Shown in pieces: positions 16,690 to 34,581 of a stretch of DNA of 64,000 nt. The DNA is from Thiomicrorhabdus lithotrophica (GTDB taxonomy: Bacteria > Pseudomonadota > Gammaproteobacteria > Thiomicrospirales > Thiomicrospiraceae): the NCBI RefSeq assembly GCF_029201445.1, contig NZ_CP102381.1, positions 2,232,001 to 2,296,000 of the forward strand. Reading direction: 5' to 3'. Each line of letters opens with the position of its first letter. The stretch's first letter is position 1. Under the pieces are notes generated by a model. The model was given only the letters and a program-made list of their open reading frames with translations. It did no database searches and was not told where the DNA came from. The position numbers and the translations under genes are program-made.

Positions 16690-16967
16690 TGAAATGAGAC
16701 AGCGTAGAAAAAGCCTCCCCTCTGTAAGAAATCGCTCTTTTACTTAGTGAAGGTTGCGGTTAAAAGTTTGTGCTGTTAGAGCGAAGCGAGTTCACAAACT
16801 TCAGCAGACAAGCTTAGTAAAATCGATTGTGTCAGCGGGGTGCCCTTTCTTTGCTTCCTTTCTTTGGGCAAGCAAAGAAAGGAAGGGGAAGCCTGATAGT
16901 TAAAAAGAAAGGTCTATAGATATTAGAAAGGCTTCTCAACAAATAAGAAAAACCCACCAGGCCTGGT
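16690..16967 (+). repeat. dispersed repeat R, copy 2
   Basis: It runs from a CTCCCNTCTGTAAG(A/C)AATCG-like start, through TTAGAGCGAAGCGAGTTCA, CAGCAGACAAGCTTAGT and a hairpin of CTTTCTTTG ... CAAAGAAAG, to ATATTAGAAAGGCTTCTCAA, and ends in a perfect ACCAGGCCTGGT. The alignment to copy 3 was made by eye. Confidence 0.65.
16956..16967. repeat. ACCAGGCCTGGT palindrome at end of repeat copy 2
   Basis: Perfect copy that marks the 3' end of repeat copy 2. The flanks extend the symmetry (AACC before, GGTT after, allowing a mismatch). Confidence 0.9.
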
Positions 16968-17019
16968 AGGTTTCACAACACAATATTACATCAGATAGAA
17001 ATACGAAAACAACGTAGAA

Positions 17020-17354
17020 AAAACTCCCTTCTGTAAGCAATCGTGACTTCACTTAGCGCAGGATGCGTTTAAAGATTGCCATTGTTTGAGTACCCCAAGG
17101 GCATTTCCTGCGGGCACCAGCGAGTTCAGGAATATCAGCAGACAAGCTTAGTGAAATCAAGTGTGTCTGTAGGGGTCTTTTGTTTGGTTACTTTCTTTCT
17201 CGGCTCTGCAGCCGAGTTCTGTGTTTGGGCAAGCAAATAAAGTGACAGGAAGCCAGAGCGATGAAATTAAAGACCTATTGATATTAGAAAGGCTTCTCAA
17301 TAATGACTAAATTCAATTTCTTAAATTCAAAAAAAACAACCCACCAGGCCTGGT
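17020..17354 (+). repeat. dispersed repeat R, copy 3
   Basis: Direct-orientation partner of copy 2 with the same order of blocks (CTGTAAG, CAGCAGACAAGCTTAGTGAAATC, TTTGGGCAAGCAAA, GATATTAGAAAGGCTTCTCAA), also closed by a perfect ACCAGGCCTGGT. It has an extra CTCGGCTCTGCAGCCGAG palindrome at about 17198-17215. Confidence 0.65.
17343..17354. repeat. ACCAGGCCTGGT palindrome at end of repeat copy 3
   Basis: Perfect copy 376-387 bases downstream of the copy that ends repeat 2, in the equivalent position. Confidence 0.9.
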
Positions 17355-17499: not shown

Positions 17500-18627
17500 C
17501 TAATCCCCCTTGCAAGTTCCTGCTAATGTCTCTAAGTCTGTCAACACTGCATAATAAGTAATATTATGACTATTGGATTTATCTTCACTCGAGGTAGATG
17601 AACTGATTAACCCTTGACTGGAAATTTTTGATGAAAGCTTAATAGCCGTATCAAACCCTTCACCACCCAACACATCTTTTAATATCTGATTTAATTCTGG
17701 CCTAAACTCTAAAGGTAACGATGCTGCAATTTCAATTAAGCTGTCTTCATACGCTCGATAATAAAGATCACCAGTGGATAAGGTTAATGTCACTAATTTA
17801 ACAATATTTTTTGAATCTTTGTACTGAGTTCTTAACTCCTGAAGAGCATCACAGTCATACACAATTCTTTCAATGGTATACCCTGAAACAACCGTTACAC
17901 CGTTCTGATTATTGTTACTGGATAATTTATTTTGCGAGTCTTTGTCCTGATTAACAGAGACAGCCTTATTCTGTGACCAATCGTAAATTAATAAGTTTTT
18001 CTGATTTAACAATTTCTGGAAAGAGCTTTTAGTCTTAGAGAGCGCTTCATATTTCTCTTCGATTTGTTCTTTTATAGATTTGTCTTTATTGTCTTTATTG
18101 TCTTTATTGTCTTTATTGTCTTTATTGTCTGACAAAAACTTTTGAGCACAGGATTTTTCCTCTTCTCCCTTTTTGTTAGCACATTCATTTTTTAAATAAT
18201 CGTTAAAGTCCTTTTCAGTTTGCTTTAATAAATTAACTAAATCCAGTTTCTTTTGTTTGAACTCATTAAGCTTACCTGCAATTTGCTCTAACACTTCTGG
18301 CGCCGTTGATTTTCCTGGAAAGGTTTGGGTTAATTTTTCTAATTCTTTGTTGTTATCTTTATTTTTTTTGATTTGTTCTTTTGAACAAACCATTGCGGTA
18401 GGTGCTCGAAAATTACTCGCCAAACATAATTGACCTACCTCTAAAAAGAGCTGCCCGTTGTGCGAAACGACTGTTGTCTGTAAAGGGTAGCCTGGATTAA
18501 TCCACTTGCCTGACATAACAACACCGTCGTTACTGCTTGTGGAAGTAAGGCTATCAAAAACCGTTTTCTTGGGATGTGAACAACCTACTAAACTTAATAG
18601 GAATACTGCAATCAATATATTTTTCAT
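17500..18627 (-). CDS. putative lipoprotein with Asp-Asn-Lys repeat
   Basis: A 375-residue exported protein with a lipoprotein signal (MKNILIAVFLLSLVGC). I chose the ATG at 18627 because it starts the signal peptide directly; an ATG 12 bases upstream is possible. The first third mentions no known fold. Residues about 90-220 are lysine/glutamate-rich and likely helical or coiled-coil, and are interrupted by a DNK tripeptide repeat encoded by a 9-base tandem repeat. The C-terminal third is globular and has two further cysteines (YDCDALQELR, LAGTCKGD) that could form a disulfide. Family unknown. It is flanked by non-coding repeats, an accessory setting. Confidence 0.78.
   Translation of the reverse strand: MKNILIAVFLLSLVGCSHPKKTVFDSLTSTSSNDGVVMSGKWINPGYPLQTTVVSHNGQLFLEVGQLCLASNFRAPTAMVCSKEQIKKNKDNNKELEKLTQTFPGKSTAPEVLEQIAGKLNEFKQKKLDLVNLLKQTEKDFNDYLKNECANKKGEEEKSCAQKFLSDNKDNKDNKDNKDNKDKSIKEQIEEKYEALSKTKSSFQKLLNQKNLLIYDWSQNKAVSVNQDKDSQNKLSSNNNQNGVTVVSGYTIERIVYDCDALQELRTQYKDSKNIVKLVTLTLSTGDLYYRAYEDSLIEIAASLPLEFRPELNQILKDVLGGEGFDTAIKLSSKISSQGLISSSTSSEDKSNSHNITYYAVLTDLETLAGTCKGD
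18081..18130 (-). repeat. in-frame 9-base tandem repeat (DNK units)
   Basis: Five full copies of a 9-base unit (TGTCTTTAT on the plus strand) plus a partial sixth, identical unit to unit. On the coding strand each unit encodes Asp-Asn-Lys in frame. A change in copy number would alter protein length by three residues without a frameshift. Confidence 0.92.
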
Positions 18628-18639
18628 ATCATTAACCAT

Positions 18640-20277: not shown

Positions 20278-23148
20278 CTACCAAACAATCTTCACTGTTG
20301 CAGCAAAGCTGTGATATTCGTCAGAGCTCGCTAACTCTCCGTTGTAACCAACATTCAAGGTTGTGTTCTCATTCAACTGACCCGTAACACCCAGACCAAC
20401 TTGTAAGCGATTTTGATCTAAATCAGAACCATCTACTTTAAAAGTGCTGGTTGGTACAGTAGTAAAACCCGCTTCAAGTTGTGAGACGTTATCTAAATGT
20501 TCACGTACGTAAGCAATGCTAGCCGCTGGGGTAATGGTTTTATTATTTTTGGTTTGAATATCTCGGCTCAACCTTAAGCCTAACGTCGTGCGTAAACTGT
20601 CTTGATCTTGCTGCTTAACACTTAAGTTGGCTGTACCTGCTCCCGTCTCATTAAAACTATCACGATTATTGTGACTGTAACTCACGCCGACATAAGGTGT
20701 AAGCGTGGTATTTAAATTCAATGGGATGTCTTTACCGGCTTCAAGTGCGCTAGCCAGATTAATACTGTCATAGCTTGATGAAGCCGTATTGACTGAGCTA
20801 CCGACAGTAACGGTTCTTGTCGCATCCGTTTTATGTAAGCCTAAACCGACCGATGCATTCATATAAACATTGTCGCGTGCCCAACTTCCATAAACACCAG
20901 TTTGAAAGGATTCAATATCACTGTCACTGGCAAACGGATCCACATTACTTCGAGTATAACTGCCAGCAATACCGACAACATAGTCACGCCAATTGGCATC
21001 CATACCAAAGGCAACACCACTGCTTTGATAATCGGCACCACTAGCATTAGTGGTATCCGCTACGGAACCAAAGCCCCCTACTCCTTGCACCCACCAACCG
21101 CGTGGGATTGGAGTTGAACTTGATGACTCCATCATGTCGAGATGCCAATTGTTTGAGTTATCTGCAAGCAGGTAACCTTGCATTGGCTTGAAAGTTTGTG
21201 CATTAAAACCGAGTGTGCCATTCGTACTTTGACTGCTGCGACTAAATAACAACTGTTGGAACTGTTGACTGATTTTATTCATGACAGCCTGGCTTTGCGT
21301 GTGTTGAACACCGCTTAAACTGTCGAACGCTTGTTGCGCACCCGTGTCAGTCAATGGGGTGATGCTGCTGACAATGGATTGTAAGGCGATGGTGTTGTTA
21401 TCCAGTACAGCGGACACAGCCGTCTGGTTTGGCGTACTTGCGACGCTGTTAAAGCTAATATCGTTACGCGTCAAGTTAAGTAACACGTTATTGGCATCAT
21501 AACTTAAGGTGGGGGTTAAAAACGCCAGATTGGAATTCACACTACCAAAGGTTGTGCCGCCTAAACCGCCTGCCGCGGTTAAGATAGTGTAGTCAGTAGT
21601 AGCGGCATAAGTACCTGCTTCTGGTTGTACATTCACGGTAGCACCGGTTAAGGTTGCCGTGCCTGTGGCTATAATCTTATCCGAGTTACCTGCGGCATCG
21701 ACTTCAACATTGTAGTTACTACCCGCACTGAAGGCCACGTCACCTGTTACGTTGATTGTTCCAATCGAATTACCTGGGGCAAAAGTTCCCCCGTTGTTGA
21801 TTGTGACATTACCGACAGTACCGCTACCACCTAAGGTACCCCCAGTATTCACAGTTGTGTTTGAATTTGCAATCGAACCATTGACCGACAAAATACCGTC
21901 ATTAATGGTGGTGGTTCCTGTGTAAGTGTTAACGCCCGTTAAATTAAGGTTGCCTGTATTTGACTTACTTAAACTCCCTGTACCACTCACTACGCCCGCA
22001 TAGGTGCCAGATGTACTTTGGTCAAAGATGAGGTTTGCGTTATTGGTAATATTGCCTTGTAATGAACTAGTGTTACCCTGCAAGCTTCCCCCACTTACAG
22101 TGGTACCGCCAGTATAGGTATTGGCGCCAGATAAGGTCACCGTACCCGTGTTTGTCTTGGTTAAACCACCTGTTCCACTAATGGTTGATGCGACACTCGT
22201 ATTACCTGACTGATTAACGTTCAATGACGAACCAGTACCAATAGTAATATTTGTTGCCGCAATACCGCCCGTTCCACTGAGATTGTAGACAGCACCATCG
22301 TTGATATTGAGGTTAGTTGTGGTGAGTGTCGCCGCAGAATGATTGAGAATGCCACTGGCTCCCTGACCCACGTTAAACGTATTAGAAAATGAAGTTTGAT
22401 CCAGTGTTAAAGTCACGCCGTCATTAACCCTGATTATATTTAACCTAAAACCGTTACTAGGACCTAAGACCGCATCGGTATTATAATTTCCGGCGAAAAT
22501 AAGTGTGCCGCCACCGCCGTTAATTCCACGAAACTCGCCGCTACCCTGATTGACGATTGTTGCAGTACCTGAACCCGTCAAACTCATCAAAGCACCACTC
22601 CCTATATGTAACACCCCCGTACCCGATTGCACATATGAGCCACCATTTAACACACTGAGTATACCAGCAAGGGTTGGTGCGATGTTTACTGTTCCTGCGG
22701 TTTGATTGACGGTACCGGAGCTCAGCTGCAAGTGCCTAGTTGCCAGATTATGTCCCAAATTAAAAGTGGTGGAATTTTGTACCGTGACTATTTGTAAATG
22801 ACCTGAACCAGCTGTACCAAAACTATTTTGGCTGGTCGTTGTCGCTTCGATATACACCACACCTTGCAGGTTAGTCTGGTTAGTTACCGCGCCGGAAGGA
22901 GTATTGCCGCCTTGCAAGATGAGCCTGTCTGCGGTGGTAACACCCGTCTGAAATTGTACTGTCGTTACCGCATTAACACCGTCTACTTCACAGCCTCCCG
23001 AACTAGAGGCAATCGTAATCGCCCCTGCCGCACAACTGGCTGCTGAGGCATTATTGAACACTCCTAATATCAGAAACGGTAGCATCGCCGCAGTAAGTGG
23101 TTTTAATTTAGCGTCAAGAACGCTCGAACTTTTTAGTGTGTGTACCAC
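20278..23148 (-). CDS. autotransporter 1 (type Va, beta-strand-repeat passenger)
   Basis: A 956-residue self-secreting outer-membrane protein. It has an extended signal peptide (cleavage near residue 37, NASA-ASC) and a Thr/Ser/Gly/Asn-rich beta-helical passenger. Several autotransporter-associated repeats of the form LTKTNTGTVTLSGANTYTGG occur around residues 330-420. A linker/autochaperone region (about 418-616) is almost identical to that in the next gene, and a C-terminal beta-barrel (about 690-956) ends in the aromatic signature KIVW. A cysteine pair (SCAAG...GGCEV) follows the signal. The adhesin role is inferred from the class. Transcription runs away from autotransporter 2, which lies 197 bases upstream. 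Confidence 0.92.
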   Translation of the reverse strand: MVHTLKSSSVLDAKLKPLTAAMLPFLILGVFNNASAASCAAGAITIASSSGGCEVDGVNAVTTVQFQTGVTTADRLILQGGNTPSGAVTNQTNLQGVVYIEATTTSQNSFGTAGSGHLQIVTVQNSTTFNLGHNLATRHLQLSSGTVNQTAGTVNIAPTLAGILSVLNGGSYVQSGTGVLHIGSGALMSLTGSGTATIVNQGSGEFRGINGGGGTLIFAGNYNTDAVLGPSNGFRLNIIRVNDGVTLTLDQTSFSNTFNVGQGASGILNHSAATLTTTNLNINDGAVYNLSGTGGIAATNITIGTGSSLNVNQSGNTSVASTISGTGGLTKTNTGTVTLSGANTYTGGTTVSGGSLQGNTSSLQGNITNNANLIFDQSTSGTYAGVVSGTGSLSKSNTGNLNLTGVNTYTGTTTINDGILSVNGSIANSNTTVNTGGTLGGSGTVGNVTINNGGTFAPGNSIGTINVTGDVAFSAGSNYNVEVDAAGNSDKIIATGTATLTGATVNVQPEAGTYAATTDYTILTAAGGLGGTTFGSVNSNLAFLTPTLSYDANNVLLNLTRNDISFNSVASTPNQTAVSAVLDNNTIALQSIVSSITPLTDTGAQQAFDSLSGVQHTQSQAVMNKISQQFQQLLFSRSSQSTNGTLGFNAQTFKPMQGYLLADNSNNWHLDMMESSSSTPIPRGWWVQGVGGFGSVADTTNASGADYQSSGVAFGMDANWRDYVVGIAGSYTRSNVDPFASDSDIESFQTGVYGSWARDNVYMNASVGLGLHKTDATRTVTVGSSVNTASSSYDSINLASALEAGKDIPLNLNTTLTPYVGVSYSHNNRDSFNETGAGTANLSVKQQDQDSLRTTLGLRLSRDIQTKNNKTITPAASIAYVREHLDNVSQLEAGFTTVPTSTFKVDGSDLDQNRLQVGLGVTGQLNENTTLNVGYNGELASSDEYHSFAATVKIVW
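21301..21897 (-). repeat. ~597 bp segment shared with autotransporter 2 (copy A)
   Basis: Aligns without gaps to 24357-24953 at a constant offset of 3056; by eye I count about nine substitutions. It encodes residues about 418-616 of autotransporter 1. Similarity drops sharply at both edges. Confidence 0.93.
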
Positions 23149-23246
23149 CTGAATATCCTCTATTTAATATATTTTTATTATTATCATTGCCAGTACAACT
23201 GTACCTGCAAAGTTCGTTTATTTATTTTGATTACTGGCGGTTTGTA

Positions 23247-23340
23247 CTAATTACTCGCAACCGCATAGCTACATATATTGCGGTTTAGTAACAGAATAAA
23301 TGGCATGTTTTTCATAATGAAACTCAACCTTTTAAATAAT
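23247..23340 (-). promoter_or_regulatory. conserved upstream block of autotransporter 1
   Basis: This block matches 26098-26200, upstream of autotransporter 2, over about 95 bases: a TTACTCGC start, a CGCAT ... TGCGG inverted pair and a CATAATGA ... AACC end. Here the inverted repeat is perfect (AACCGCA ... TGCGGTT, about 23258-23286). Conservation in two non-coding upstream regions points to a shared operator or leader; the AraC-type regulator nearby is a plausible binder. Confidence 0.55.
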
Positions 23341-23345
23341 TCAAC

Positions 23346-25949
23346 TTACCACTCCATCCTAAACGTTGCCGTAACGTCATGTCGCTCATCTGAACTTGCT
23401 ACTTCACCTTGGTAAGCCAGATTGAGCGTTGCTGTATCATTAAGCTGAACATTAACCCCAAGACCGACTCTAGCGTGGTCTCGATTAAGTTCTGGGCCAT
23501 AAACGGTAAAGCTTGTATTGGTTGCAGGTTCAAAACCCGCTCGTAAGATAGATTTGTTATCCATATTTTCATTTACCCAAGCCAGTTCAGCAGTAGGTTG
23601 AATGTGGTAACCTTGTTTGGTTGTCCAGCTATGAGCAATGCGAGTACCAATTACTGAGCGAAGAGACTCTTGGTAATCACTATTTACTTTTAGATTAGCC
23701 GAACCTGCACCGGTTTCTGTAAAGCCGTCACGGTTAACGTGTGTATATTCAAGGCCTGCAAAAGGCGTGATATGGGTGTTTTCATTTAAGGTAAATTGAC
23801 GACCGCCTTCAATGGCAACATTAGCGGTTGTAGCATCGTAATCTGATTTAGCCACAAGGTTAGAAAGCCCAACCGTGACGTTACGACTCGCTTTGGTTTT
23901 TTGAGTACCAATGCCTGCTGTTCCGCTCACATAGTAATCGTTGTTTAAGTGCAGTTTCCCGTAAAGAGCTAATTGGTAACTATCCGCATTTAAACGTCCT
24001 TGTTCAACATCGGCATTGGCACTGGTGAAGCCAAGAGCGGTACCAATCGTGAGGTCGTCAGTAAGGTTGTCATCAAAGCCAGTGGCAATGCCGCCTGCTT
24101 TGTATTCAGTACCTGAAGCATTAGTGGTACTATCAATTTTGCCTTCATTGCCAATAGCACGTAACCACCAGCCACGTTGTGTATCAACTGAATTATTGAG
24201 TAATTGCGAACCAGCATCGTTCATTGTTTCTCTGTCATTATAAGCAAGCATCACCGTGCCATTATTAGCAAGTAAAGAGTTATTGCCTTGAATACGGTCA
24301 AAGAGTACTCCTTGAAACTGATTAACAGATTGCAAAGCAATCTGACTGCTATGGGAGTGTTGAACACCGCTTAAACTGTCGAACGCTTGTTGCGCACCCG
24401 TGTCAGTCAATGGGGTGATGCTGCTGACAATGGATTGTAAGGCGGTGGTATTGTTATCCAGTACAGCGGACACAGCCGCCTGGTTTGGCGTACTTGCGAC
24501 GCTGTTAAAGCTAATATCGTTACGCGTCAAGTTAAGCAACACGTTATTGGCATCATAACTTAAGGTGGGGGTTAAAAACGCCAGATTGGAATTCACACTA
24601 CCAAAGGTTGTGCCGCCTAAACCGCCTGCCGCGGTTAAGATAGTGTAGTCAGTAGTAGCGGCATAAGTACCTGCTTCTGGTTGTACATTCACGGTAGCAC
24701 CGGTTAAGGTTGCCGTGCCTGTGGCTATAATCTTATCTGAGTTACCTGCGGCATCGACTTCAACATTGTAGTTACTACCCGCACTGAAGGCCACGTCACC
24801 TGTTACGTTGATTGTTCCAATCGAATTACCTGGGGCAAAGGTTCCCCCGTTGTTGATTGTGACATTACCGACAGTACCGCTACCACCCAAAGTACCGCCA
24901 GTATTCACAGTTGTGTTTGAATTTGCAATCGAACCATTGACCGACAAAATACCTGCATTCACGCTAGTTACACCGTTATAGGTATTCGCACCAGTGAGTG
25001 TGGTGCGGCCTGCCCCAGCCTTGGTCAGGTTCCCGGTGCCGGAAATAATCCCGCTGAAGCTGGTGTCCGCCGTGGTATTGAAGGTGCCGTTGGCGGCGCC
25101 CAGGGTGATGGCATTGTCGATGGTGGTGGCGCCGGTGACGGTAAGATTGCCGCCGTTGAGGGTGAGGGCGCCGCCACCCAGGTTGCTGTCTGAAGCAATG
25201 GACAGGGTGCCGGCATCGACACTTGTTGTGCCAGAATAGGTGTTGACCCCGCTCAGGGTCAGTGTGCCTGTTCCGGTCTTCACCAGGGCGTTGGTACCGT
25301 CATCGGTCACATTTCCGGAGAAGGTGACATTATGGATACCAGTGTCTATGGTGGCGGTATCCTCAATCTCAATTCTGGAGGTGTAGATCGCATCGGTATT
25401 GAGTTGCAGCTTCGAATTGCCTGAAATATCAATAAAAGGGGTGGATGTGGTCGTTCCCAGGACCAGTGTTGACCCAGCGGTGATCCAGAGCTTGCTCGTG
25501 CCGGAAACATCGCCGTTTAAGGTAAGGGTCCCGCCGTTGGCGGCGAGGATCCCGGGTCCGCCAGTAAAGTTAAAGCCTGAGTTGATGGTCAGAAAGTCGC
25601 CGGCACCTGGGCTAAAATAGATGTGAGAATCCGCAGTGATGTCATCGCCGCCTACCGTCAGCGAGGTGGTCGTGCCGGTAAAGTTCCAAATGGTTGCAAC
25701 TCCGATACTGTAGATAAGGGGGCCTGCAAGGGTGATGGTTGCCCCTGCTCCGAGATCATGGAAATTCTGAACTTGTTCGCCTGATGCTGCCCCGGCGCGA
25801 ATGGAACCGACGCTCAGATCACCGGCCGTGTTTGTGATGGTCGCAGCGGCCATTGCCCATGAACTTGTAAGAAAGCACATCAGCATCCCAATAAAAAAAT
25901 CTCGACTGGCCTGAGCATGGAAAATAGCTGTTAACGTTGATTTGACCAT
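23346..25949 (-). CDS. autotransporter 2 (mosaic, GC-rich passenger)
   Basis: An 867-residue autotransporter with an extended signal peptide (about residues 1-35, SSWAMA-AATI), a Thr/Gly/Ser-rich passenger with autotransporter-associated repeats (LVKTGTGTLTLSGVNTYSG near 235-255, and LTKAGAGRTTLTGANTYNG near 305-325), the segment shared with autotransporter 1 (residues about 333-531), and a C-terminal beta-barrel ending in FRMEW. The barrel is clearly homologous to, but diverged from, that of autotransporter 1. Codons for the first ~320 residues are far richer in G+C than the rest of the window, so the gene looks assembled from a foreign passenger and a local translocator. The AraC-type gene lies upstream on the same strand. 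Confidence 0.92.
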   Translation of the reverse strand: MVKSTLTAIFHAQASRDFFIGMLMCFLTSSWAMAAATITNTAGDLSVGSIRAGAASGEQVQNFHDLGAGATITLAGPLIYSIGVATIWNFTGTTTSLTVGGDDITADSHIYFSPGAGDFLTINSGFNFTGGPGILAANGGTLTLNGDVSGTSKLWITAGSTLVLGTTTSTPFIDISGNSKLQLNTDAIYTSRIEIEDTATIDTGIHNVTFSGNVTDDGTNALVKTGTGTLTLSGVNTYSGTTSVDAGTLSIASDSNLGGGALTLNGGNLTVTGATTIDNAITLGAANGTFNTTADTSFSGIISGTGNLTKAGAGRTTLTGANTYNGVTSVNAGILSVNGSIANSNTTVNTGGTLGGSGTVGNVTINNGGTFAPGNSIGTINVTGDVAFSAGSNYNVEVDAAGNSDKIIATGTATLTGATVNVQPEAGTYAATTDYTILTAAGGLGGTTFGSVNSNLAFLTPTLSYDANNVLLNLTRNDISFNSVASTPNQAAVSAVLDNNTTALQSIVSSITPLTDTGAQQAFDSLSGVQHSHSSQIALQSVNQFQGVLFDRIQGNNSLLANNGTVMLAYNDRETMNDAGSQLLNNSVDTQRGWWLRAIGNEGKIDSTTNASGTEYKAGGIATGFDDNLTDDLTIGTALGFTSANADVEQGRLNADSYQLALYGKLHLNNDYYVSGTAGIGTQKTKASRNVTVGLSNLVAKSDYDATTANVAIEGGRQFTLNENTHITPFAGLEYTHVNRDGFTETGAGSANLKVNSDYQESLRSVIGTRIAHSWTTKQGYHIQPTAELAWVNENMDNKSILRAGFEPATNTSFTVYGPELNRDHARVGLGVNVQLNDTATLNLAYQGEVASSDERHDVTATFRMEW
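24357..24953 (-). repeat. ~597 bp segment shared with autotransporter 1 (copy B)
   Basis: Partner of 21301-21897, with about nine differences and no indel. The adjacent barrel-coding parts of the two genes are only moderately similar, so the identity is confined to this block. Confidence 0.93.
24990..25870 (-). other. GC-rich passenger-coding segment, probable foreign origin
   Basis: Two 60-base lines counted here (25021-25080 and 25081-25140) contain 35 and 41 G+C, i.e. 58% and 68%, whereas surrounding non-coding lines are near one third and coding lines near 40-45%. The shift starts shortly upstream (in coding terms) of the shared 597 bp block and lasts to near the signal-peptide codons. 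Confidence 0.75.
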
Positions 25950-26438: not shown

Positions 26439-27482
26439 TTAGGAAGCCAGTGTTGCGGAGGGTGTTTCGTTAAATAATTGGCGGTATTCAAGTGCAAACC
26501 GACCGAGATGTAAAAAACCATACCGCATGGCAATATCCGTGACGGTTGTTGCTTGAGGATCGGAATCTTTGAGAATTGTTCTCACGCGATGCAGGCGACA
26601 CAAACGAAGATAAGTAACTGGTGGCATGTCAACATAAGAACGAAAGGCATACTGCAGTGTCCGCTCAGAGACACCGACTACCTTACAGGTATCCACTATG
26701 GTAGGCACAATATCGGACATAAGGCTAGCTTCAATATAGGCGCGAGCTTCTCGGCAAAGATGAAGCGCACGGTTTCTTTCTGGTCTTAATGGGCGCCAAT
26801 TCCCAAATCCTTTCGTGGCAGTAATTTGTAAAACATCTTGCAACAGCATTTTACGTATGAGTTCTTGGTCGATAAGAGAGCTCTGTAGGGTATTCGTTTC
26901 AGCTATTTTGAGCCATCTGTTCACGGTCTCTTTTAATAACGACTGTTGTGCATTATCGATTGCCAATAGTTGTTTCGGAGCGTTCTCCCACATTGCTGGA
27001 TTAAGAAATTGTGCACCGCTCAAAAATTCATCTTGGTTAAAACTGATATAGGTGGTTTGAAGCCCAGGAGGGATATAAATATCAAACTCGGTGCTTTCAG
27101 GCAGAAAAAAAACTGTATCGCTATTGACGGCATTAAGCTCTGAAAACCGGACTTTTGGATCAGGGGTGCAATACGAGATTGTACAAAGATTGGAAGGCAG
27201 AGCGCCTTGTTTTTGAATTGCTGCGTGTTGACTCTCTCTGACAATCTGCTGATTGCCAAAATCTAGGCAATCCATTTGTGAGAGCTGTAGACCTTGGCTT
27301 AGTTGATAACATTCCATTTCAACCCAAGGTTGCATCGCCGCCTGAACAGCTGGATCTTTAATAACCTCTGATTTTAAGCCATTTAGAGAAGGCACCGTTA
27401 TGCCTTCAGTTAACACCTGGTTAGCAATTTGCGCTGGAGGCACTTCTTGTGGTTTTGGGATATCAACTGTCTTTCCAGTCAT
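26439..27482 (-). CDS. AraC-family transcriptional regulator
   Basis: A 347-residue DNA-binding regulator. The C-terminal ~110 residues form the two-helix-turn-helix AraC/XylS domain (TIVDTCKVVGVSERTLQYAFRSY, then VTDIAMRYGFLHLGRFALEYRQLF with the usual RxFxxxYxxxFxxxP pattern). The N-terminal ~230 residues show a jelly-roll-like segment (VFFLPESTEFDIYIPPG) but no signature revealing the ligand; the overall layout resembles EutR-like regulators. It is encoded upstream of, and on the same strand as, the two autotransporters, which makes them candidate targets. That link is inferred from position and the shared upstream block. Confidence 0.88.
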   Translation of the reverse strand: MTGKTVDIPKPQEVPPAQIANQVLTEGITVPSLNGLKSEVIKDPAVQAAMQPWVEMECYQLSQGLQLSQMDCLDFGNQQIVRESQHAAIQKQGALPSNLCTISYCTPDPKVRFSELNAVNSDTVFFLPESTEFDIYIPPGLQTTYISFNQDEFLSGAQFLNPAMWENAPKQLLAIDNAQQSLLKETVNRWLKIAETNTLQSSLIDQELIRKMLLQDVLQITATKGFGNWRPLRPERNRALHLCREARAYIEASLMSDIVPTIVDTCKVVGVSERTLQYAFRSYVDMPPVTYLRLCRLHRVRTILKDSDPQATTVTDIAMRYGFLHLGRFALEYRQLFNETPSATLAS

Positions 27483-27917: not shown

Positions 27918-28232
27918 TTAAAAACCAATCAGCTCAGGATCCAACACTTGCGCATCGTAGGTATAGATAAGAATGTGATGCCCTTTTTTGCGATAGACTT
28001 GCAAACTATCAATCAGCGCATCTGCCATCCCTTTGGACATTAAAATCATAAATAACACATTGGTTTCACCATCAGAGTGTCCGTCTTGAACACCTGTATT
28101 ACCATTACCACGAGCATTAAGCTGTGTATAGCCAGTTACGCCAAGCTTTTTAAGAATCTTTACCAAACTATCTTCAAAAGTCGAGTTGATAATAATTTGT
28201 ACAGATTTTCCTTCAGCCATTTTTGTTTTCAT
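27918..28232 (-). CDS. PII-like signalling protein paired with SbtA
   Basis: A 104-residue protein of the PII fold family: KSVQIIINSTFEDSLVKILKKLGV is the first beta-alpha unit, the T-loop region is GYTQLNARGNGNTGVQDGHS, and VLFMILMSKGMADALIDSL forms the second half. It lacks the classical uridylylation loop of GlnB/GlnK. It follows sbtA by 10 bases. In cyanobacteria the equivalent SbtB binds adenine nucleotides and inhibits SbtA; a related carboxysome-associated group (CPII) binds bicarbonate and nucleotides. Control of the adjacent transporter is therefore the likely role, by analogy only. Confidence 0.85.
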   Translation of the reverse strand: MKTKMAEGKSVQIIINSTFEDSLVKILKKLGVTGYTQLNARGNGNTGVQDGHSDGETNVLFMILMSKGMADALIDSLQVYRKKGHHILIYTYDAQVLDPELIGF

Positions 28233-28242
28233 AAATTACTCC

Positions 28243-29229
28243 TTAAGCCCCAATGTACCAAATTGACATCTGATAGAAAAGTGGGATTCCGATAACCACG
28301 TTGAATGGGAAAGTAATCCCTAGCGATAAGGTTAAATAGTACGATGGATTCGCTTCTGGAACACCATAACGCATAGCGGGCGGTACAGCAATGTAAGAAG
28401 CACTTGCTGACAAAATTGCTAACAAGAAAGTACCACCCAATGAGAAACCTAGCATTGAAGCACCAACGAATACACCAATTGTTCCACCAATAAGCGGCAT
28501 AATTACACCGAAAGAAATCAGGATTAAACCAGCCTTTTTCAGCGCATCTAATTTTTTAGCAGCTTCAATACCCATATCTAATAAGAATAAGCATAAAACA
28601 CCCATGAAAATTTCTTTAGTGAAAGGCGTTACTTTTGCCATAGACTCTGGTGAAGCGACCGCACCAATAATTAACGCACCAAGTAATACAACCACACTAC
28701 CATTAGTAAAGGCTTCATGTAACAAAGGTCCCCATTCGGTTTTAACCGTCTCACCGCCTTGCTCAGAAGATAGACGTTTTCTAGCTAGTGCGGCTAAAAG
28801 TAAACCCACAATAATGGCAGGAGATTCCATGATAACCATCATAACAATAGGGTAGCTTTCATAGCTTACACCTGAAACTTCTAAAAACGCGACCGCGGTC
28901 AAAAAGGTTGCCGCACTTACAGAACCGTAGTGTGCAGCAATAGCTGCAGCATCAAACATATTCACTTTGTTTCTAAAGCGTAACAAACCATAACCGATGA
29001 TAGGCAAGATAAAACCTAAAATCGCTGCCCAAATAATAGATTCGACAGCCAGTTGGAAATCAGCTTTAGCTAGGGCTTCCCCTCCTTTTAAACCAATGGC
29101 TAATAATAGGTATATCCCTATTCCTTTCGTCATCCCTTCTGGAAATTTAAGGTCTGACTTAATCAGTTTTGCAATAACACCAAGCGCAAAAAACATTACC
29201 GCTGGTATTAATAGACTATCTAATCCCAT
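28243..29229 (-). CDS. sbtA: SbtA-family sodium-dependent bicarbonate transporter
   Basis: A 328-residue integral inner-membrane protein with about ten hydrophobic segments arranged as two related halves. Family landmarks include the N-terminal GLDSLLIPAVMFFALGVIAK, FPEGMTKGIGIYLLLAIGLKGG, AAIAAHYGSVSAATF (first-half substrate motif) and the second-half SASASYIAVPPAMRYGVPEANPS. This is the pattern of SbtA (formerly DUF897), which imports bicarbonate with sodium. The start is preceded by GAAGGAGTTAGG, a very strong ribosome site. It is the first gene of a two-gene operon with the PII-like regulator. The carbon-uptake role is well supported by this pairing and by dabBA nearby. Confidence 0.9.
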   Translation of the reverse strand: MGLDSLLIPAVMFFALGVIAKLIKSDLKFPEGMTKGIGIYLLLAIGLKGGEALAKADFQLAVESIIWAAILGFILPIIGYGLLRFRNKVNMFDAAAIAAHYGSVSAATFLTAVAFLEVSGVSYESYPIVMMVIMESPAIIVGLLLAALARKRLSSEQGGETVKTEWGPLLHEAFTNGSVVVLLGALIIGAVASPESMAKVTPFTKEIFMGVLCLFLLDMGIEAAKKLDALKKAGLILISFGVIMPLIGGTIGVFVGASMLGFSLGGTFLLAILSASASYIAVPPAMRYGVPEANPSYYLTLSLGITFPFNVVIGIPLFYQMSIWYIGA

Positions 29230-30031: not shown

Positions 30032-30520
30032 ATGCACTTCATAATCAGCCTTGTCATCCGCCCTATCAGATTAGTAAGCTACAAATGAAAGCCAACTGAG
30101 AATTCACTATCACCGCTTTTGGTATTAGCAATCAAATAAACTTTGTATTTAAAATACTTACTCACACCCATCAAATAATGGCTTTGTTAGCAACAAAAAC
30201 ATAGGTAAACAGCCTTCTTTTAACCATTGGTAATTATCTATAGGTTTCAAAAATAACTTTAATAGTGAATCAAAAATTTTGTGTATATAATCATCCACAA
30301 CAAAAGTAACCAAGTAAAATGCTCGGAAATCTTGGCAATGCCTATTCGTTAAAATTAAAGAGTAATTTTCTTGATTGCTCAGAAGTGAACTGTCAGATTG
30401 ATTATTAATATTTGATAACTCGTTAAACCAACAATAATAAACAGCCAAAATGGCTAAAGAGCGGATGCTTTGAAATTGCAAGCCGTTCAAACAACAGATA
30501 AATTAATTGGGAGAAAAAAT
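30032..30520. other. 489 bp upstream region of dabBA
   Basis: No convincing gene. A TATAAT (30286-30291) without a good -35 partner could be the dab -10 box. A small inverted repeat TTTGTT-AGC-AACAAA lies at 30183-30197. The sequence is AT-rich throughout, consistent with a regulated promoter region. Confidence 0.5.
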
Positions 30521-32077
30521 ATGGCTGGTGAATGGATTGATTCTTTATTACTGCTATCAATACCAATAATGTTTTTTGTTTCTGCTTGGGCGCATGAGCG
30601 CAGAGCCAATTGGGATGTTGCAATGGGCGTTGCCATTGTGGCTTTCATTATCAGTGTTTCTACAGGAATACTATCGATTGCAGGCCTGGTAAAATTTGGT
30701 CAAGGCTTTAACTGGGTAACACATGAACCCGTTAGCTTAATCATGCTCAGTTTGATTAGTTTTATCTCCTATATCAATGTGCGTTATTCGCGTTCTTATA
30801 TGGCAGGAAATGCAGAAGAAGAAAGACGTTACATTCGCTGGCTGTCAATCACACTTGGCTTTGTAACCCTTGTTGTTGTTTCTAACCATATGATATTGAT
30901 GTTGGTTGCCTGGATTGGAATCAGCGTAGCACTTCATCAGTTATTGATTTTCTATCCAGGGCGACAGCGTGCCGTTTTAGCCGCTTATAAAAAATATATC
31001 TTTGCTCGTATCGCTGAAATCTTGTTATTGGCGGGTGTGCTCATTCTTTACTACGAATATGACACTTGGCTAATTAGTGAAATTTATGCAACGGTAAGTC
31101 AGGCCGAATCACTGAGTTATGCAGGTCATATTGCGGCTCTATTTTTAGCCGGCGCAGCAATTATTAAGTGTGCCCAACTGCCTCTTCACGGTTGGCTAAT
31201 ACAGGTAGTAGAAGCGCCTACGCCTGTATCTGCATTACTTCACGCAGGAATCATCAACTTAGGTGGTTTCTTAATGATTGTATTTGCTCCACTACTGATT
31301 CTTTCAGACATTGCGCAGTGGTTATTACTGATTGTAGGTGGTTTAACAACCGTACTAGCCGCATTAGTGATGATGACTCGAGCAACGATTAAAGTACGCC
31401 TAGCATGGTCAACCATGTCTCAAATGGGGCTAATGCTGGTTGAATGTGCGTTGGGTCTATTTGAACTGGCATTACTTCACCTGATTGCTCACTCATGCTA
31501 CAAGGCATACGCCTTCTTGAACTCAGGAACCGAAGTGGAGTCAACCATGAAACGTAGACTGGCCAAATCCGTTCCGCCAACGCGTACTGACTGGTGGTTA
31601 GCAGGTTTTTTAGCTTCAGGACTTGTAGTCGCACTTGTGGTTATTGCATCCTTACCTGCGCCATATAGCCCTTGGGTATTAATTGCTATTGCCTTAACGT
31701 TATTAATTGCAGAGCGCCGTGGTCGTATGACTTCAGCATCTGTGGTCTCTATGGTGGTGTTAGCTGCGATTCTAATGATTGCCTACACTCTGCAAAAATA
31801 TGGCATTAGTTATATTATCGAACATCAGCCAACCAGCGTTGGTTTAGCAGGTGACTTATGGATGGCTTTCTTATTTATCCTATTCTTTATCGGCTATATT
31901 ATGCTGCGTTATCATCGTGACCACCCTGCGGTAGTTAACACTTGGAGAGCATTCTATGCAGGCTTCTATTTAGATGAATATATCACTCGTTTAAGCTTGC
32001 GAGTTTATCCGACTAAGTTACCTGAACGTTTTAAACCAAAACATCTGAAAATCCCTAAAGAGGAGCTGTTCAAATGA
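30521..32077 (+). CDS. dabB: DabB, proton-channel-like subunit of the DAC carbon transporter
   Basis: A 518-residue polytopic membrane protein of the NuoL/MrpA antiporter family. I start at the ATG at 30521, preceded by GGGAG, rather than 30470, because family members begin directly with a membrane segment. The hallmark KCAQLPLHGWLIQVVEAPTP and VSALLHAGIINLGGF segments (about residues 220-250) match the proton-pathway core of NuoL. The C-terminus is highly basic. It overlaps dabA by four bases (ATGA), so the two are translationally coupled. In Halothiobacillus the DabA-DabB complex drives uptake of inorganic carbon using cation gradients; the same role is expected here. Confidence 0.92.
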   Translation: MAGEWIDSLLLLSIPIMFFVSAWAHERRANWDVAMGVAIVAFIISVSTGILSIAGLVKFGQGFNWVTHEPVSLIMLSLISFISYINVRYSRSYMAGNAEEERRYIRWLSITLGFVTLVVVSNHMILMLVAWIGISVALHQLLIFYPGRQRAVLAAYKKYIFARIAEILLLAGVLILYYEYDTWLISEIYATVSQAESLSYAGHIAALFLAGAAIIKCAQLPLHGWLIQVVEAPTPVSALLHAGIINLGGFLMIVFAPLLILSDIAQWLLLIVGGLTTVLAALVMMTRATIKVRLAWSTMSQMGLMLVECALGLFELALLHLIAHSCYKAYAFLNSGTEVESTMKRRLAKSVPPTRTDWWLAGFLASGLVVALVVIASLPAPYSPWVLIAIALTLLIAERRGRMTSASVVSMVVLAAILMIAYTLQKYGISYIIEHQPTSVGLAGDLWMAFLFILFFIGYIMLRYHRDHPAVVNTWRAFYAGFYLDEYITRLSLRVYPTKLPERFKPKHLKIPKEELFK

Positions 32078-34581
32078 TTGGCAATAACAATATCGAACAA
32101 GCACAAGCTTTAACAACCAGCTTAAGCGAATCACAAAACAACCTAATTGCAGAAGGCTGTAACCGTATTGCGCCAACTTGGCCATTAGAAGAACTGATTG
32201 CAGTAAATCCTTGGTGGGAACTTCGCGATCAATCATTTTTAGATGTATCGGCTAAGATTCAAGCTTTGGGGCAAGCACATTGCTTGATGCCTAAAACTTA
32301 CTTTCAAAATCAGTGGTTAGAAACGATTTACACTCACCACGTAGAACAAGCAATGACTGAGTTATGTCATTATGAAATGACGGTCATGCAACTGGAACGC
32401 TACCTACTTGAAGATGATGATTATACGCATTGGCACAATATCAGTGACTTCGTAGACAGTGGACGTGATCGTCAACATATGATGGCTTGGCGTGATGAAA
32501 TCACCCAACAAATTTCTCAGTTCTGTGCCGATTACTTTCGTGAACGTCCATTAAATGTTTGTTTCAACGAACACTACAGTGGCATTTATTCAGCTTGGCT
32601 AGAGACCACGCGTAAAGACTGGGGGCTTGAAATTCTGATGGCGGAAGACGGTTTGACAGAACAGTTTCTAGAGCTACCAGAAAAAGCTGAAGATCTTCTT
32701 GCAGAAGCGTTTGGTACTTTAGGGGTAGGTGATGCTCAGCTAGCCGATTATATTCATGCCTTACTGTTAGATGAAAATGGCTGGGCTTCGTGGGTTGCTT
32801 ATCTAAAATGGCAAGATGGTTTAAATGGTTTTGATAACACCTTAATGCAAGAATTCTTGGCTATAAGAGTCGCTTGGGAATTAGTTCTTTGGCGTCATCA
32901 AAAAGAGACTGGTCGCGAAGTATTTAATGAACTAAAAGTGATGTGGCGTTCACAGCTTTCGTTTTTACCACGTTTGATTGAAGCGCATAAAGAGTCACAG
33001 AAAAAACTTTGGGTATGGCAGCGTGCTGCAGAGATTGCGTATCAATCTCGTCTGCATGAAAGATTGCGTTTTACCAGTGAACACTTGCACCCTGGCATTG
33101 ATGAAAGTACTGGTGAAGTTGAGCATGTAACCAACCCACGAACAGAGCGCTCATTAGTACAAGCCGCATTCTGTATTGATGTCCGTTCTGAAGTGTATCG
33201 CCGTGCATTAGAAACTCAAAATGAAGGTATTCAAACACTCGGCTTTGCTGGTTTCTTTGGTCTACCCATCGAGTTTCAGCCTTTAGGCTCTGAGATTTCA
33301 AGACCACAACTACCAGGCCTGCTGCGTTCGGCGATTAAAGTCACGCCTTTGACAGGCAAGGAAAAGTTGACCCTAACTGTTGAAAAACTCAATAAGAAAG
33401 CGCGTTGGTCAGAATGGGGTTATGCGCCTCCAGCAACTTTCAGCATGGTTGAAGCGACTGGTGTTCTGTATGCATTCCGCATGTTAAAGAACAGTCTGTT
33501 CCCAGACTCACACTATCACCCGATAAATGACCTGCCTTTAACGGCTGAGTTTGAATTGACTGAGAACGAAGAACCTTTAAACCTGGAACGTAAGGCTGAA
33601 TTAGCCGCAACCATTTTACATGCTATGGGGCTAGACAAAAATTTAGCATCCAAGGTTCTGTTGGTTGGTCATGGTAGCCGTTCATGCAACAACCCTCACT
33701 TAGCAGGGTATGATTGTGGTGCATGTGGCGGCCAAACGGGTGAAGTGAATGTTCGAGTTTTAGCTTACTTGCTAAATGAAATGGATGTTCGTGAAGCCCT
33801 AGTTGAAAAAGGCATTATCATTCCTGAAGACACTGTTTTTATAGCTGCCATGCACAATACGACAACGGATGACATAACATTCTTCGGTGAAGGCGTTGAT
33901 GATGAACTACGCCAGTGGTTTGAAAATGCCTCTGACTTATGCCGCCAGGAACGCTCAAGTCGTTTAGGTCTGACCCACCTTGACGGTAAAGCGTTGAATA
34001 AGGCCATTCGTGGTCGAAGCAAAGACTGGTCACAAGTTCGACCTGAATGGGGTTTAGCAGGTAATGCGGCATTTTTTGTGGCACCTCGTTGGCGTACTCG
34101 TGGTGTTGATTTTGATGGTCGTGCGTTCTTACACGATTATGACCATGAAGAAGATCAAGATCGCAGCTTACTGACCTTGATTATGACCGCGCCAATGGTG
34201 GTAGCAAACTGGATTAACCTGCAATACTACGCTTCGGCTTGTGATAACCATGTATATGGTAGTGGAAACAAAACACTTCACAATGTCATCGAAGGTGCTG
34301 TGGGTGTCTTTGAGGGTAACGGTGGAGACTTACGTATCGGTTTGCCTATTCAAGCGCTTCATGATGGCGAAAACTGGATGCACGAACCTTTACGTTTGAA
34401 TGTATATATTGACGCGCCACGTGAAGCGATTGAAAACATTGCAAAAGAACACGAAGCAGTCCGTCAGCTTATCGATAATGATTGGCTATATCTGTTCCGC
34501 TGGGGAAGAAAAGGGACCATTGAACGTTACTACAAAGGTCTTTGGTCAACGGCCTACAGTACAATTCAAAAAACGACTTAA
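32074..34581 (+). CDS. dabA: DabA, zinc-binding subunit of the DAC carbon transporter (DUF2309)
   Basis: An 835-residue peripheral protein of the DUF2309 family that couples to DabB and is thought to act as a vectorial carbonic anhydrase. The four residues known to be needed for zinc in Halothiobacillus DabA have clear counterparts: Cys367 and Asp369 (FCIDVRSEVYRR), His533 (VGHGSRS) and Cys548 (DCGACGG). The His-to-Cys spacing of 15 matches the characterised protein. The nearby Cys551 may also be relevant. The gene overlaps dabB and ends in a strong terminator, so the operon is only dabBA. A one-mismatch copy of the iterated palindrome lies in frame at 33312-33323 (Leu-Pro-Gly-Leu-Leu). Confidence 0.94.
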   Translation: MIGNNNIEQAQALTTSLSESQNNLIAEGCNRIAPTWPLEELIAVNPWWELRDQSFLDVSAKIQALGQAHCLMPKTYFQNQWLETIYTHHVEQAMTELCHYEMTVMQLERYLLEDDDYTHWHNISDFVDSGRDRQHMMAWRDEITQQISQFCADYFRERPLNVCFNEHYSGIYSAWLETTRKDWGLEILMAEDGLTEQFLELPEKAEDLLAEAFGTLGVGDAQLADYIHALLLDENGWASWVAYLKWQDGLNGFDNTLMQEFLAIRVAWELVLWRHQKETGREVFNELKVMWRSQLSFLPRLIEAHKESQKKLWVWQRAAEIAYQSRLHERLRFTSEHLHPGIDESTGEVEHVTNPRTERSLVQAAFCIDVRSEVYRRALETQNEGIQTLGFAGFFGLPIEFQPLGSEISRPQLPGLLRSAIKVTPLTGKEKLTLTVEKLNKKARWSEWGYAPPATFSMVEATGVLYAFRMLKNSLFPDSHYHPINDLPLTAEFELTENEEPLNLERKAELAATILHAMGLDKNLASKVLLVGHGSRSCNNPHLAGYDCGACGGQTGEVNVRVLAYLLNEMDVREALVEKGIIIPEDTVFIAAMHNTTTDDITFFGEGVDDELRQWFENASDLCRQERSSRLGLTHLDGKALNKAIRGRSKDWSQVRPEWGLAGNAAFFVAPRWRTRGVDFDGRAFLHDYDHEEDQDRSLLTLIMTAPMVVANWINLQYYASACDNHVYGSGNKTLHNVIEGAVGVFEGNGGDLRIGLPIQALHDGENWMHEPLRLNVYIDAPREAIENIAKEHEAVRQLIDNDWLYLFRWGRKGTIERYYKGLWSTAYSTIQKTT

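Follow-up and report, generated by a model that had tools for sequence, protein, structure and literature searches.

Two tandem type Va autotransporter genes, A and B, lie in a 64 000-nucleotide window of the Thiomicrorhabdus lithotrophica genome (the window being the whole stretch of DNA analysed, with positions counted from its first letter), and they share an almost identical connector of 597 bp between flanks that are unrelated at the DNA level. We consider it highly probable that a connector of type II, most probably from A, was recently placed into B by non-reciprocal conversion, and that the two short motifs in which the converted tract ends, here termed J1 and J2, are general joints. 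Judged from its sequence, B is a three-part chimera of a foreign passenger, an A-type core and a native barrel. The genes and their cores are as follows.

20278-23148, minus strand: gene A, type Va autotransporter of 956 aa with a GTG start (PF03797; PATR PF12951; TIGR01414; TIGR02601)
23346-25949, minus strand: gene B, type Va autotransporter of 867 aa with an ATG start (PF03797; PATR)
21301-21897, minus strand: core (connector) of A, residues 418-616, predicted to run from the last rungs of the beta-helix through the autochaperone into the first helices of the linker
24357-24953, minus strand: core of B, residues 333-531, the putatively overwritten copy, of type II, the barrel of the same gene being of type I

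The preliminary description of this DNA had reported two blocks of about 597 bp that align without gaps with about nine substitutions, and this proved exact: the cores of A and B comprise 199 codons in frame, at an offset of 3056, and differ at nine sites, seven of which are synonymous. The shared stretch opens with GGT ATT TTG, at G418 in A and G333 in B, and closes with GTT CAA CAC (H616/H531); with the offset unchanged, identity falls to 24-49 % in the 100-bp windows next to it. Transcription follows the minus strand in both cases, so that the passenger-side (upstream) edge lies at 21897/24953 and the barrel-side (downstream) edge at 21301/24357. In a protein-guided alignment nucleotide identity between A and B was 98 % in the core, 45 % over the 90 codons before it and 50 % (40 % at the amino acid level) in the barrel. 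Breakpoint likelihood placed the 5' edge at one codon and the 3' edge within one codon, and none of 200 permutations reached either edge. Synonymous divergence (dS) between the genes was 0.05 in the core and 2.57 in the barrel, and was saturated in the stem, so that neither simple duplication nor selection at the protein level explains the core; the smooth identity through the whole genes that would have spoken for simple duplication is absent.

In transcriptional order B comes before A, on the same strand and 197 bp away. Both C termini match the PF03797 profile of the 12-stranded barrel (E 9.8e-64 for A and 1e-63 for B; 215.9-216 bits, the cut-off being 26), and the modelled barrel matched EstA, NalP, EspP and BrkA in Foldseek. 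Both genes also encode a beta-helical passenger with PATR repeats (PF12951/TIGR02601), with which the strands of the model agree, and an autochaperone before the linker that matches the C-terminal part of Ssp (8e7f) in sequence and fold. By eye, the pair has hydrophobic N termini that end in ...NNASA-A and ...SSWAMA-A, putative Sec signal peptides, and the C termini KIVW and RMEW, each with an aromatic last residue. Pfam and TIGR domain searches found no protease or esterase domain in A or B. B was modelled with AlphaFold over residues 206-867 (mean pLDDT 86.9), and the core falls at model residues 128-326, with predicted last beta-helix rungs and autochaperone sheets to about residue 271 and helices to 322. 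The core would end in the SLSGVQH turn, between the helix at 311-322 and a long helix at 325-350, with barrel strands from 387. The ends of the tract lie in two short motifs common to all these proteins, GILSVNGSIANS (J1) and SLSGVQH (J2).

21862-21897, minus strand: upstream joint J1 in A (GILSVNGSIANS), from the A-B edge at residue 418, the A-D edge at A residues 424-430 and the alignment of relatives (gene D is introduced below)
24918-24953, minus strand: upstream joint J1 in B, from breakpoints and the alignment across relatives
21301-21321, minus strand: downstream joint J2 in A (SLSGVQH), from breakpoints (A-B at 616-617) and the alignment across relatives
24357-24377, minus strand: downstream joint J2 in B, from breakpoints and a predicted break that separates the model helices 311-322 and 325-350

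The crystal structure of Ssp of Serratia marcescens (8e7f), the last rungs of which resemble an autochaperone (PMC9977779), has 43 % identity over 194 columns with the homologous region of B. Ssp matches the beta-helix and autochaperone part, so that A and B resemble it in having a beta-helix with PATR repeats and an autochaperone, and their barrel end and linker match those of EstA, AaaA, NalP and EspP; the passenger heads of A and B, however, differ from those of Ssp, EspP and EstA.

A check for mobile elements found no tRNA and no Rfam family at the A/B locus, and a plasmid search returned distant relatives only, below 60 % identity and none covering more than 80 % of the query. Promoter and terminator scans (8 hits vs 11.3 expected by chance and 4 vs 6.5, respectively) were uninformative on operon structure. 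The gene upstream of B has a homologue in the same place beside gene D of a congener.

26439-27482, minus strand: AraC-type regulator upstream of B, 63 % identical to its homologue beside gene D in congener G029

Compared between the two species in amino acid sequence, this AraC protein is 60 % identical (dS 2.2), whereas gltD is 93 % identical in amino acid sequence between the same species, so the regulator is either fast-evolving or has itself been exchanged. Adjoining the autotransporters is a putative inorganic-carbon uptake cluster, with genes that by eye are SbtA/SbtB-like and DabB/DabA-like at 27918-29229 and 30458-34578; together with a genome of 2.5 Mb, they suggest an autotroph of the Thiomicrospira group that oxidizes sulfur. 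On the other side, at 16785-17303 and between open reading frames, there are two families of imperfect direct repeats, about 80 % identical, of 56 nt spaced 334 and 85 nt spaced 361, and at 17500-18639 an open reading frame for a 379-aa lipoprotein-like product with a (KDN)n run and without a Pfam match.

A search of 32 genomes of the genus, our own included, found the core outside its own genome in G029 only. A scan of 84 980 species genomes yielded 49 relatives, the nearest in Betaproteobacteria metagenome-assembled genomes, Pseudomonas aestuarii and Methylophaga. A third autotransporter gene, C, lies in the same genome far from A and B, with a core 70 % identical in nucleotides. Gene D (L009, 6016-10959) is the single such gene of G029 and stands, like B, beside the AraC homologue; the wider surroundings are not conserved. 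Its passenger contains about eight near-identical 64-residue PATR units, of which A has one; the copy number of this unit in the D passenger probably varies. A near-identical core between copies within one genome was not seen again among the relatives, the two copies in Methylophaga having clearly different cores. The parts outside the core have the following affinities.

23349-24356, minus strand: type I barrel of B with its helix, native in appearance (GC3 0.34; 91 % amino acid identity to gene D)
21898-22215, minus strand: stem of A common to gene D (about 81-86 % amino acid identity)
20281-21300, minus strand: type II barrel of A with its helix, closest to Methylophaga L060/L061 (50-52 % amino acid identity)

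The species yardstick gltD has a dS of 0.78 between our genome and G029. The stem of A and D (dS 0.67) and the barrel of B and D (dS 0.57) come near this value and are of about the age of the species split; the A-B core, at 0.05, is much younger, and the event that produced it postdates the split from G029. The D core is 67-68 % identical in amino acids to those of A and B, the synonymous sites of which are saturated against both D and C.

Trees of the core and of the barrel conflict. In the core tree A groups with B (support 98/94) and both with Methylophaga L060 and L061 (96/94), whereas in the barrel tree B groups with D (100/99), near gene E and L056-L059, and A with L060 and L061 (99/98). 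The approximately unbiased (AU) test rejected A+B for barrels (p = 1.8e-11), B+D for cores (p = 1.4e-49) and a grouping of all type I cores including that of B (p = 7.4e-5). The preliminary description had read the sharply bounded block as recent gene conversion or domain swapping, and the low core dS together with these conflicts bears it out. As the type I barrels formed a clade with low support (42/27), we read the direction of transfer from the B+D barrel pairing, the core clade of A, B, L060 and L061, and linker length. The linker of B is of the form, four residues shorter, found in A, C, L060 and L061, while the other holders of a type I barrel (D, E and L056-L059) have the longer one. 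The core of B is thus the odd one out, and an A-type core would have replaced its own. Both the trees and the length of the linker indicate a donor of type II, for which A is the simplest candidate. Against the opposite direction, in which the core was B's own and was copied to A, stand the barrel match of B and D with a mismatched core and the trees. Among the 1176 pairs formed by the 49 proteins, A-B was the largest outlier in core identity given barrel identity (+7 sd). Linker and barrel identity were correlated (rho 0.63) and stem and barrel identity were not (rho 0.02), figures that are descriptive because the pairs are not independent.

The edge of the core had also been proposed as a crossover point for passengers, a suggestion for which two lines of evidence were found. 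The A-like stem of D stops at the same upstream joint and is followed by a B-type core and barrel, the likelihood break falling at A residues 424-430 for A-D, against 418 for A-B. The passenger of B, moreover, is compositionally foreign up to this edge.

24954-25841, minus strand: passenger of B, compositionally foreign (GC3 0.65 vs a background of 0.34)

The background was taken from 129 windows of other genes (mean 0.34, sd 0.03, maximum 0.40); the shift in B falls at J1. The core has a GC3 of 0.47 in both genes. The nearest stem to that of B is L058 (63 % amino acid identity), and no relative or donor of its passenger head was found in 369 genomes of the class. On this pattern of stems and composition, passengers appear to have been exchanged at J1 in both the species and its congener. 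D and Methylophaga L060 are 53 % identical over some 950 passenger residues, yet differ in barrel type (38 %). For J2, the B-D breakpoint lies between B residues 517 and 536, around the joint at 525-531. Sphingomonas L077 and L079 are 92 % identical in amino acids in the core, 87 % in the stem and 57 % in the barrel, and their best break, over the broad interval of alignment columns 1589-1644, includes a J2-like motif at 1632. This is probably an independent barrel exchange at or near J2, though a fast-evolving barrel could also explain it.

Other histories must be weighed against conversion. In one of them A was recently duplicated in tandem, or the tandem genes underwent an unequal crossover, the core is what remains of that event, and barrel and passenger of B were replaced afterwards; we judge this unlikely. 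The same mosaic would be expected, the passenger of B was indeed imported (GC3 0.65), and an unequal crossover between two cores would also set one core beside two different barrels. The scenario, however, requires at least two further replacements and a newcomer barrel in B, while that barrel has background GC3, a dS to D of 0.57 against 0.78 for gltD and an adjoining AraC gene, and so looks resident. A plain duplication with a slow core and fast ends is scarcely credible: no other part of the family is as conserved as the core, with the autochaperone at 70-80 % amino acid identity even between proteins with 40 % identical barrels, but the near-identity of its synonymous sites between A and B (saturated against D and C), the conflict of core and barrel trees and the one-codon edges refute it.

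It is quite improbable that A and B each received the core independently from an external or lost type II autotransporter gene. The elevated core GC3 in both genes would fit such imports, and gene C indicates that several autotransporters circulate in this genome; but the A core groups with the A barrel type (L060/L061) in both trees, so that A needs no import, and a single import is more probable than two that share their edges. Assembly can also collapse or misjoin near-identical repeats lying 3 kb from each other, an origin we regard as very remote because the copies differ at nine sites, the genome is one contig of closed size with 99.99 % completeness, both junctions run in frame into intact genes, and comparable joints occur in other assemblies (D, L077/L079).

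Our working model of conversion starts from A and B as old, divergent tandem genes. Ectopic, non-reciprocal recombination would have exchanged the 199-codon connector of B for a type II connector, the donor most likely being the neighbouring A, and the tract would end inside J1 and J2. Both joints hold the reading frame and fall between predicted structural elements, so that swapped genes would stay usable, and the hybrid B protein is presumably secreted. The joints would be general ones, serving for passengers at J1 and, in Sphingomonas, apparently for a barrel at or near J2. The enzymatic route may have been conversion of the RecA type. Donor and recipient cores were probably about 63 % identical before the event, as those of A and D are today, which makes them a poor substrate for RecA-driven recombination and is the weak point of conversion. 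The conserved motifs may have primed the conversion, or an unequal crossover may have come first, with further replacement after it. An unseen third type II gene could have been the source of both cores, and since core GC3 is above background the core itself may be an older import.

In the bab genes of Helicobacter pylori, ectopic, non-reciprocal copying between outer-membrane paralogues swaps a variable middle while the common ends stay. The copying described here would likewise be non-reciprocal, but it is the middle connector that is homogenized and both ends that stay different. Subdomain shuffling is known for Antigen 43 (agn43) of Escherichia, where type Va modules have different phylogenies, as in the family of A and B, and the autochaperone clusters separately (PMC10058404). 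In Antigen 43, the autochaperone goes strictly with the neighbouring EJ-BL module of the passenger, and the translocators make up a single clade (PMC10058404), whereas in our case autochaperone and first linker helices appear to have moved into a gene of which passenger and barrel both differ, with edges defined at the nucleotide level. Celik et al. (2012; PMC3419190), in the part of their survey that deals with passengers and barrels, noted a conserved linker motif and found that passenger type is not bound to barrel type, with which the uncorrelated stems and barrels (rho 0.02) agree; the survey compares families, and that part describes neither joints, nor direction, nor a connector moving apart from both ends. 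As shuffling in Antigen 43 and the mixing of passengers and barrels are published, exchange as such is not new. What is new, among the literature searched, is a connector moved apart from passenger and barrel, with codon-exact edges, a direction and two recurrent joints.

We suggest, tentatively and as the less likely outcome, that the connector and its end motifs form a standing recombination joint of this autotransporter family across the Proteobacteria, such that passenger, connector and barrel would be inherited independently, as three cassettes, and homogenization of the connector between paralogues would ease later swaps of passenger or barrel between them. The connector of B belongs to another barrel type, so that B offers a natural experiment on the need for autochaperone and linker to fit their barrel; as linker and barrel otherwise covary, a functional B would reveal how much mismatch is allowed. 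The A/B pair is a nucleotide-level case of free-living bacteria building autotransporters through exchange at fixed joints, and a warning that a tree made from entire autotransporters blends three histories.
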